A stretch of 30,259 nt of DNA, taken from a virus. A program made the translations under genes and the position numbers. Positions 17,035 to 19,727 of this stretch are shown here, one piece after another (the first letter of the stretch is position 1; the number at the start of each line of letters is the position of its first letter). The DNA is taken from the IMG/VR virus record IMGVR_UViG_3300046007_007096, positions 1 through 30,259 of that record; one strand, written 5' to 3'. The notes beneath the pieces are model-generated. The model was not told where the DNA came from. It was given only the letters and a program-made list of their open reading frames with translations, and searched no databases.

Positions 17035-17262
17035 AATGGCACATTCAAATTTCCTAAAAAGCCATATTTTAGTAGGTTTTTTCAAAATGGCACATTAAAA
17101 CAGACTTTACCCTATATTTATAAAATGAAGTTTTTATTTTTTTTATTTTTCAATTTTCAGTCGTTTAATGTGCCACATGTGCCATATCCTAGTGTTTTCA
17201 ATGGTTTCAGCTATGTTCAATGTGCCATGGAAGTGCCATGAATGTGCCATGAATGTGCCATA
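17035..17262. repeat. Iteron array, 11-bp units with core ATGTGCCA
   Basis: Four 11-bp units stand in perfect tandem at 17219-17262. Units 1, 3 and 4 are AATGTGCCAT(G/A) and unit 2 is GAAGTGCCATG. Two more direct copies of the core are at 17168-17175 and 17177-17184. Two inverted copies, AATGGCACATT, are at 17035-17045 and 17086-17096 (first base of the second is part of an A-run). The 11-bp period is one helical turn, as in iterons bound by replication initiators. The AT-rich DNA between (17097-17160) would be the unwinding element. Confidence 0.75.
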
Positions 17263-17305: not shown

Positions 17306-17315
17306 TATCTTTGCA
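17306..17315 (+). promoter_or_regulatory. Promoter box TATCTTTGCA before the structured RNA
   Basis: A perfect TAnnTTTG match. The 11-mer TTATCTTTGCA (17305-17315) recurs exactly at the promoter of the HNH gene (20969-20979). Transcription should start a few bases downstream, right at the 5' arm of the long stem. No -33 TTTG is visible; the upstream DNA is AT-rich in both copies. Confidence 0.7.
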
Positions 17316-17375
17316 GAGGTGGAAACGGAGGCATCCGTTGGTAACTAAGTTGTCGGACTTATCCACCTCTTTTTA
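17315..17375 (+). ncRNA. Three-way-junction RNA (leader or small RNA) ahead of the primase gene
   Basis: The outer stem is AGAGGTGGA (17315-17323) with TCCACCTCT (17362-17370), nine perfect pairs. Inside are AACGGA/TCCGTT (17324-17329 with 17334-17339, GGCA loop) and TAAGT/ACTTA (17346-17350 with 17357-17361, six-base loop). Both inner helices abut the outer one, leaving only GGTAAC unpaired. A T-run follows immediately (TTTTT, 17370-17374), so the outer stem is placed like a terminator stem. It may be a short independent RNA or an attenuator for the primase. No hammerhead core is present. Confidence 0.68.
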
Positions 17376-17402
17376 TAACAACCGACACAAAACCGAAAAA
17401 CA

Positions 17403-19727
17403 ATGATAGCAACTATCTTTAAGGATTTAAGCAAAACGAACACCCCATTTTACAGGGATATTGATTTTATATTAGACAGGATCAAGAATGGTTCTTCAAA
17501 GGATTTAATTAATAGAATCCAAAAGGAAAATGATAAACAAAAAAGAAACGAATTAAAGTCATTGCTTCCAGCGATATGCTTTAGTGGACAATTTGCAAGA
17601 AGATCCGATGCTTCTATAGTTCAACATAGTGGATTAATTTGTTTGGATTTTGATAATTACGATACGAATGAAGAATTACTAGAGGATTTAAAAAAGATAA
17701 ACGGATGTGAATATACATTTGCATCATTTATATCACCAAGCGGAAACGGATTTAAGTTATTAATTAAGATACCTACCGAGACACCTAATCACAAGCTATA
17801 CTTCGATGCGTTAGCTGATTACTTTAGTAACTCTCATTTCGATACAACCTCAAAGAATATTAGCAGAATATGTTTTGAAAGCTATGATCCGAATATTTTT
17901 ATAAATAAAGGATCTAAATTATGGGATTCAAAAAAGGAATTTCAATCATACAGCTATATCGACAAGGCACCAACCGTCAAGCTAACTAATGAGAATGAGA
18001 TAATATCAAGGCTTTATAAATGGTTTACTAAAAACCATTCGTTTGCACCAGGCCAACGTAATAGCAGTTTATTTATTTTGGCATCTGCGTTTTCCGATTA
18101 CGGAATTAGTAAAATAGAGGCATCAAGGTTCTGCAATCAGTTTTCAAGTAGTGATTTTACAATTAACGAAATTGAACGAACCATCAATTCGGCATATTCA
18201 AAGTGCTTGGCTAACTTCGGGATGAAATATTTCGAAGACAATGAAAGTTTAGATTTTGTAAGGAAAGAAATTAAGGCAGGCAAAACACTAGAGGACTTAA
18301 AGAAAACATTGCCACAACTTGAAAAGTGGAGTTTTGATGAGATTAAAGAAACCGCAACTATCAACGATTTTTGGAAGCTATCAAAAAAAGGATTTGTAAT
18401 TATTGAATCCTACGCTTACAAACGATGGCTAGAATCGAATGGATTTTACAAGTATTACCCGGAAGGTGCTGAAGGTTTTATTTTCATCAGAGTTGAAAAT
18501 AACTTGATTGATAACACCTCTGAAGAAAAAATAAAGGATTTCGTTTTAAATGAACTGCTAAAAATATCCGAGTTTAAGGTTTACGAATATTTGGCCTCAA
18601 ATAGCAAATACTTTAAAGAGGATTACTTGAACTTGTTGGACAATATTGATGTCAGGTTTAAAGAAGATACGATTGACACCGGATATATTTACTTTCGGAA
18701 TTGTGCCGTAAAAGTAAATACCAAAGAAATTGAACTAATTGATTATATTGATTTGGATGGGTTTGTTTGGAAAAAACATATTATTGACTACGAATTCAGA
18801 AAATCAACAACTACCAAGTGCGATTTTCAAAAATTTATTTCTTTAGTGAGTTCGAATGACACAAATCGCATTAGGTCAATCACCTCTACTATTGGGTACC
18901 TAATGCACAGCTTTAAAACCAGCGCAAACAATAAAGCTATTATTTTGAATGACGAAACAATAAGCGAAAACCCAAATGGAGGAAGTGGGAAGGGTATATT
19001 TTGGAACGCGTTAAGTAAAGTGAAGAGGGTTTCCGATATTAATGGTAAAGGGTTCAGTTTTGAGAAAACATTTCCATATCAAACAGTTTCAGCTGATACA
19101 CAAGTTTTAGTTTTTGATGACGTAAACAAGAATTTCAAATTTGAAAATTTGTTTTCTGTAATTACCGAGGGCATCACACTTGAAAAAAAGAATAAGGATG
19201 CCATTAAGGTGCCGGTAAGTAAATCCCCTAAAATAATTATCACAACAAACTACACCATTGGTGGTATTGGTGGGAGTTTTGAAAGAAGAAAATGGGAATT
19301 GGAGTTCAGCAGTTACTTTAGCGAAAGATACACACCATTAAATGAATTTGGAAGGATGCTGTTTGACGAGTGGGATGATTCAGAATGGATACTATTCTAC
19401 AATTACATGATTAATTGTTTGCAATTTTATTTAAAAAATGGGTTAGTTAAAAATGATTTCCAAAATTTAGAAACTAGAAAATTTATTAAAGAAACCGCAT
19501 TTGAATTTTACGAGTGGATCAGCGACAATAAAAACATCCACTTTGATGTTAAACTTTACAAGTCAACTATCTTTAATGAATTTATAGAAGAATATCCTGA
19601 TTTCAAAAAATGGCTTAGTAATAAAAAGTTTTGGCAATGGATGGGGGTTTATATCAAGTCAACTAAGTTTGATATGGAAGAAGGAAAAGACATGATTGGA
19701 AGATATATTATAATCAAAAAGAAATAA
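17403..19727 (+). CDS. Primase-helicase (VirE-N/BT4734-like primase plus SF3 helicase)
   Basis: A 774-residue two-part replication protein. The N-terminus (about 1-190) is of the VirE-N/BT4734 type found in Bacteroidota elements: LICLDFDNY gives the acidic pair Asp82 and Asp84, and SPSGNGFKLLIKI (111-123) follows, as in archaeo-eukaryotic primase folds. A helical region with NSSLFILASAF and FTINEIERTINSAY looks like a primase C-terminal domain (around 215-265). The helicase part has Walker A NPNGGSGKG (about 523-531) and Walker B VLVFDDV (about 568-574), then SPKIIITTNY as the sensor/motif C of SF3 helicases. It lies just after the candidate origin and probably both opens and primes it. Confidence 0.85.
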   Translation: MIATIFKDLSKTNTPFYRDIDFILDRIKNGSSKDLINRIQKENDKQKRNELKSLLPAICFSGQFARRSDASIVQHSGLICLDFDNYDTNEELLEDLKKINGCEYTFASFISPSGNGFKLLIKIPTETPNHKLYFDALADYFSNSHFDTTSKNISRICFESYDPNIFINKGSKLWDSKKEFQSYSYIDKAPTVKLTNENEIISRLYKWFTKNHSFAPGQRNSSLFILASAFSDYGISKIEASRFCNQFSSSDFTINEIERTINSAYSKCLANFGMKYFEDNESLDFVRKEIKAGKTLEDLKKTLPQLEKWSFDEIKETATINDFWKLSKKGFVIIESYAYKRWLESNGFYKYYPEGAEGFIFIRVENNLIDNTSEEKIKDFVLNELLKISEFKVYEYLASNSKYFKEDYLNLLDNIDVRFKEDTIDTGYIYFRNCAVKVNTKEIELIDYIDLDGFVWKKHIIDYEFRKSTTTKCDFQKFISLVSSNDTNRIRSITSTIGYLMHSFKTSANNKAIILNDETISENPNGGSGKGIFWNALSKVKRVSDINGKGFSFEKTFPYQTVSADTQVLVFDDVNKNFKFENLFSVITEGITLEKKNKDAIKVPVSKSPKIIITTNYTIGGIGGSFERRKWELEFSSYFSERYTPLNEFGRMLFDEWDDSEWILFYNYMINCLQFYLKNGLVKNDFQNLETRKFIKETAFEFYEWISDNKNIHFDVKLYKSTIFNEFIEEYPDFKKWLSNKKFWQWMGVYIKSTKFDMEEGKDMIGRYIIIKKK

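Follow-up and report, generated by a model that had tools for sequence, protein, structure and literature searches.

The leader of repZ in IncI-type plasmids carries a hairpin loop that pairs with a segment just upstream of the replication gene. The c4 antisense RNA of phages P1 and P7 is cut out by RNase P, and Citron and Schuster reportedly described in 1990 that c4 and its target lie on the same strand and are made from one promoter. The complementary sequences of c4 are thought to lie in loops and to be directed against a ribosome-binding site, which blocks translation, and differences in the code underlie heteroimmunity (PMC12197685); the RNA is listed as RF01695 (PMC2864571). The CI RNA of satellite phage P4 derives from the leader of the replication operon and pairs with two leader sites, seqA and seqC (PMC4825925). 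Here, we analyzed a three-way-junction RNA element in IMG/VR virus record IMGVR_UViG_3300046007_007096, positions 1 to 30,259 of which, read on one strand, are referred to as the window. The element lies between a promoter box and a primase-helicase gene, and the loop of its third helix is complementary to two sites ahead of the start codon of that gene, an arrangement that recurs in homologues from other phages. Its closest working analogues are the c4 RNA of P1/P7 and the P4 CI RNA; by membership tests, it belongs to neither. The features of the locus are as follows.

17306–17313, plus strand: Bacteroidota −7 promoter box TATCTTTG (TAnnTTTG), read from the sequence; homologues have such a box at nearly constant spacing before the RNA
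17315–17323, plus strand: 5′ strand of helix P1 (AGAGGTGGA), from the fold and the junction scan, with P1 covariation in homologues
17324–17339, plus strand: P2 hairpin AACGGA-GGCA-TCCGTT, six base pairs (17324–17329 with 17334–17339) and the loop GGCA (17330–17333)
17346–17361, plus strand: P3 hairpin TAAGT-TGTCGG-ACTTA, five base pairs (17346–17350 with 17357–17361), whose loop is the targeting loop
17362–17370, plus strand: 3′ strand of helix P1 (TCCACCTCT), nine base pairs with 17315–17323
17370–17374, plus strand: U-run, a possible intrinsic termination point, from the sequence and homologues
17382–17387, plus strand: target S (CCGACA), complement of the P3 loop TGTCGG, positioned relative to the ATG as in homologues
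17393–17396, plus strand: target S2 (CCGA), a partial second copy 10 nucleotides before the ATG
17403–19727, plus strand: proposed regulated gene, encoding a BT4734-like_N / PriCT_1 primase-helicase (phrog_28855)

Like c4, the element is a structured phage RNA with a loop complementary to a target at the ribosome-binding region of its own transcript, as judged by complementarity and position only. It differs from c4, which is an RNase P-processed RNA, in that it appears to begin at its own promoter and to end at a U-run; in addition, one loop here faces two tandem targets, the phages are of the Bacteroidota type, and the genes targeted encode primases or candidate initiators rather than an antirepressor. 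The c4 model RF01695 gave no gathering-score match to the window or to the homologous loci L001 and L009, and none in E-value mode to the window leader or locus L240. The P4 CI RNA, too, is a leader RNA of a primase/replication operon, with two sites complementary to it; however, CI acts by terminating transcription prematurely, and its sites flank it on either side, whereas S and S2 are both downstream of the U-run and close to the start codon. The repZ leader shares the pairing of a leader loop with a segment before the replication gene, but its antisense RNA comes from the opposite strand. A search for TAnnTTTG, restricted to this box type, found none on the opposite strand within about 150 nucleotides in 75 loci or in the window; thus, the regulator at our locus most likely comes from the same strand.

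The three helices have nine, six, and five perfect base pairs, leave six junction bases unpaired (GGTAAC, 17340–17345), and are followed by a T-run, just as an initial annotation of this DNA had described them. Its statement that the first base of the outer stem is the last base of the promoter box needs correction: the box ends at 17313, and P1 begins 2 nucleotides later. We scanned for perfect three-way junctions with a P1 of at least 7 base pairs, a P2 and a P3 of at least 5 base pairs, and at most 8 junction nucleotides. The 30,259-base window contains no such junction other than this element, and 60 dinucleotide-preserving shuffled windows contain none, which agrees with the earlier judgment that such a structure is unlikely to form by chance. 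The predicted RNA fold has a minimum free energy of −24.7 kcal/mol (z = −3.0), and 2 of 200 shuffles were equally good. A generic terminator scan did not detect the element at 17315–17374 because the scanner permits simple hairpins only.

Homologues were gathered from primase relatives in IMG/VR, with two DNA patterns, and by covariance-model searches. Some 65 to 75 further distinct copies were found in IMG/VR phage contigs, the count varying with the extent of flank compared. Nearly all copies share one layout, in which TAnnTTTG is followed 2 to 3 nucleotides on by P1, then by P2 with a GGCA or UAGCU loop, P3, the U-run, and the gene start; loci L288 and L289 have no perfect TAnnTTTG box. The longest T-run measures at least four in 65 of 66 homologues. 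The matches of an early pattern search other than L006 and L009, as well as the matches L233 and L260 of a later one, were judged to be chance, with the promoter or the gene not in place. A covariance model built from four relatives, with the window left out, placed its top match in the window at 17317–17371 (17.1 bits; E = 0.03 over 112 kb and 0.16 over 590 kb).

To evaluate covariation, we used a structure-guided alignment of 60 matches (52 distinct, the window not included), in which 95.6% of the cells were paired and changes on both sides had occurred in 9 of 15 pairs, spread over all three stems. The covariation score was 0.281, compared to 0.092 in shuffles (0 of 500 as high) and at most 0.10 in slid-partner controls. 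This alignment was fitted to the structure and is biased in its favor; an independent hand segmentation of 17 relatives agrees with it. A MAFFT alignment of the class A leaders, as we call those with the three-way junction, mis-registered the stems, and RNAalifold on it was uninformative; the structure-guided alignment was used instead. Pairs of the P3 stem vary rarely, and the evidence for P3 is chiefly the loop-target pairing. Compensatory stem changes, the sign of function that the initial annotation had proposed to look for with homologues and a covariance model, are thus present, and these comparisons strongly support the element as a conserved functional RNA between promoter and primase. 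The P2 loop takes two main forms only, GGCA or UAGCU, across otherwise divergent RNAs; it possibly contacts a protein or makes a tertiary contact.

The most informative feature of the element, absent from the initial annotation, is the complementarity between the P3 loop and its targets. In the window, the loop UGUCGG (17351–17356) is complementary to S and partly to S2, with the ATG at 17403. Among 65 distinct homologous loci, the loop usually pairs with S over 7 to 9 base pairs, mostly 8 to 9, and S lies about 20 to 26 nucleotides before the start codon, while S2 lies about 8 to 12 nucleotides before it. These loci contain 31 distinct P3 loops, and the pairing covaries: the loop-S score was 19.4 for a loop and its own leader and 11.6 between lineages, and none of 5,000 permutations did as well (maximum, 13.4). 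Likewise, the second-site score was 13.6, compared to 8.8 ± 0.25 for shuffled remainders. L246 and L263 are exceptions in which the script chose an early start codon, removing most of the leader. The S sequence was confined to the leader in most of 14 loci checked, apart from a short 7-mer that recurs in L268 and one further match in L240. The near absence of S elsewhere in most contigs checked indicates that the target is the phage's own leader.

The genes that follow the RNA fall into several unrelated families and encode BT4734_N/PriCT_1 primases, the DUF3987 helicase type, Prim-Pol, VapE, DUF6291, DUF7833, and unassigned small proteins, the last being candidate replication proteins by position and weak PHROG matches (primosomal protein, replisome organizer). 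The loop code TACACTGTT precedes three gene families, and the family MITKDYLKK... carries at least six loop codes. Since the same code stands before different families and different codes before the same family, the downstream protein is not what reads the code. Codes and protein families vary independently, and the idea that a downstream initiator protein recognizes S was set aside on that ground. The window primase shares 77% identity with that of L001, a locus with a three-way-junction RNA, and 63 to 67% with those of L018, L019, L021 to L027, L002, and L003, whose leaders are of a different kind; its identity falls to 49% with the primase of L009, where the three-way-junction RNA is present again. 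This mismatch between primase identity and leader type suggests that the leader moves independently of the gene. One confident RNA copy per phage record was found in 9 of 9 positive controls.

Leaders of a second class in this slot, class B (L018, L019, L021, L024, L045, L047, L071, L174, and others), are situated 100 to 150 nucleotides upstream of the primase start. Class B leaders have a terminator-like hairpin whose end coincides with, or lies close to, the start codon, and a loop region within it is complementary to a 5′ segment, S1, or to a hairpin loop. For 29 such leaders, own complementarity scored 20.6, compared to 13.2 between lineages and a maximum of 15.7 in 5,000 permutations. In the cultured Flavobacterium phages elemoA/B/D and elemoE/F, the DNA is nearly identical as far as the promoter, beyond which the two groups carry different class B leaders, each consistent within itself. 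These alleles (L322, L330, and L331 versus L100 and L329) are swapped at the promoter, upstream of a small gene that precedes the replication protein, in cultured phages of one host. Cellulophaga phage phi13:2 also has a class B leader. In L028, a class B-like pseudoknot without a U-run lies about 130 nucleotides before the primase, which suggests that not every member needs termination. L025 and L003 have a long H-type pseudoknot (10 plus 10 base pairs) about 110 nucleotides before the primase, just before the start codon, with no clear U-run.

On balance, we think it somewhat probable that the element is a same-strand antisense leader that represses its own replication gene at the level of translation, either in cis or, once terminated, in trans. 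A promoter of its own at the phage origin would drive the leader RNA, which would fold as a three-way junction with a P3 loop antisense to S and S2, the two sites located after the U-run and ahead of the start codon. By pairing with both sites, the loop would cover the translation-initiation region, which makes translation the natural target, and less primase or initiator would be made. Some transcripts probably stop at the U-run, and the resulting RNA of about 55 nucleotides may act in trans on read-through mRNAs from all genome copies in the cell, providing negative feedback on replication. With loop and target in one cassette, the two would change together, and each phage type would read its own code only, as in c4 heteroimmunity or plasmid incompatibility. 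The position of P1 at the putative transcript start, together with the U-run, favors a free short RNA; the loop may act in cis, in trans after termination, or both. Of the three roles suggested in the initial annotation, a short terminated RNA controlling replication still appears the best. An attenuator in the usual sense, that is, a cis switch on an upstream terminator, is unlikely: S and S2 are transcribed after the U-run, and their pairing cannot act on termination there in cis. An attenuator switched in cis by S was set aside on the same ground.

Several observations weigh against translational repression by an antisense leader. Pairing between loop and S in the window is modest, just 6 base pairs (duplex, −7.8 kcal/mol) plus a 4-base-pair second site, and that in L001 is weaker still; the window pairing nonetheless carries weight because the site coincides with the target position in other lineages. 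Some members have a short or broken U-run (T4 in 7 of 66 homologues), at which termination is perhaps weak. In class B, the target is at the 5′ end rather than at the start codon, so that a mechanism shared by both classes is no more than possible. Finally, loop-S pairing in cis amounts to a pseudoknot, which could activate translation instead of repressing it.

In a possible though rather doubtful alternative, the loop-S helix is a pseudoknot that acts in cis only, like the repZ leader pseudoknot of IncI-type plasmids, shaping the ribosome-binding region of the full-length mRNA, for example as a held-open or stand-by site, and the U-run is a linker. With about 7 to 12 nucleotides, the P1-S linker seems able to accommodate an intramolecular loop-S helix; several members have an interrupted U-run; and two competing targets for one loop would suit a cis switch. 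However, a P1 that starts 2 to 3 nucleotides after the promoter box and is followed by a T-run is what a stable, terminated small RNA would look like, and a purely cis helix needs no rapid diversification of the code. The IncI-type regulator, moreover, comes from the opposite strand, for which no promoter box was found here.

A direct role of the RNA at the origin, whether as a replication primer, an R-loop former, or an origin-activating transcript, with a secondary effect on the gene, is unlikely; it leaves unexplained the complementarity of the loop to S and S2 and their nearly constant distance from the start codon. What speaks for it is the adjoining replication gene and an iteron array directly upstream of the RNA.

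17035–17262, both orientations: iteron-like repeats TGTGCCAT / ATGGCACA, about eight copies, three at 11-base-pair spacing (repeat search)

These repeats likely mark a putative replication origin. Upstream of the RNA, 52 of 71 homologous loci contain repeated 9-mers, compared to 28 of 768 random background pieces. Relatives have different repeat sequences at the same place as the window array.

We consider it very improbable that the element is a single-stranded DNA structure (a cruciform or single-strand initiation site) read by a replication protein. Stem covariation alone fits RNA or single-stranded DNA alike, and the element sits at the probable origin; however, a promoter box immediately precedes it and a U-run follows it in the direction of transcription, and loop codes differ within one downstream protein family. 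G-T pairs, found in 16 cells of the loop-S helices, also suit RNA, although the helix finder permitted them. A mere 5′ stabilizer or ordinary terminator of the replication transcript is just as improbable, for a 5′ stem at the transcript start and a U-run would serve it while the conserved P2 loop, the covarying targeting loop, and two target copies would all be unnecessary; the 5′ cap-like structure of the initial annotation is possible as a secondary role, one that leaves the covarying loop and its two targets unexplained.

In the window, a helicase gene comes next after the primase-helicase gene, RecT and exonuclease genes lie upstream, and terminase, portal, head protease, and tape-measure genes are found elsewhere. 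No integrase or repressor was noticed among the part of the window proteins examined, in a record that is possibly incomplete. Bacteroidota hosts were assigned to the window from its promoter type and from relatives of the replication genes rather than from a host record.

At gathering scores, no Rfam 15 family matched either leader class, and tRNAs in class B loci were the only hits; E-value mode returned nothing credible for the window leader or L240. The initial annotation had likewise recognized no matching RNA class. Covariance-model searches of about 795 Bacteroidota genomes gave no credible match in bacterial chromosomes at that sensitivity, three weak matches being judged chance in the absence of promoter and gene context. 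Searches by blastn with the window and class A leaders, which can miss short RNAs, found no class A leader in phage isolates or plasmids. A limited literature search, with subscription papers mostly outside it, found no such RNA described, which is weak evidence of novelty. Altogether, the three-way-junction leader, with no match among 4,227 Rfam models, appears to be an undescribed RNA family.

The RNA is present in dozens of uncultured phages and is tied to at least five replication-gene types, and its targeting loop changes faster than the rest of the molecule yet keeps both targets. Whether RNA controls phage replication in Bacteroidota, and makes replicating phages exclude one another, thereby becomes directly testable; for class B, the cultured Flavobacterium elemo phages provide two natural alleles behind nearly identical upstream DNA. 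The RNA device is probably a switch that limits the replication of each virus and keeps it private. More tentatively, exchangeable origin RNA cassettes, of the three-way-junction class and the kissing-loop class B, may set replication-compatibility types among Bacteroidota phages, a self-encoded small RNA counting genomes and shutting off replication-gene expression in any co-infecting phage with the same code. If true, replication modules that are otherwise unrelated would share an RNA-based system of incompatibility and superinfection.
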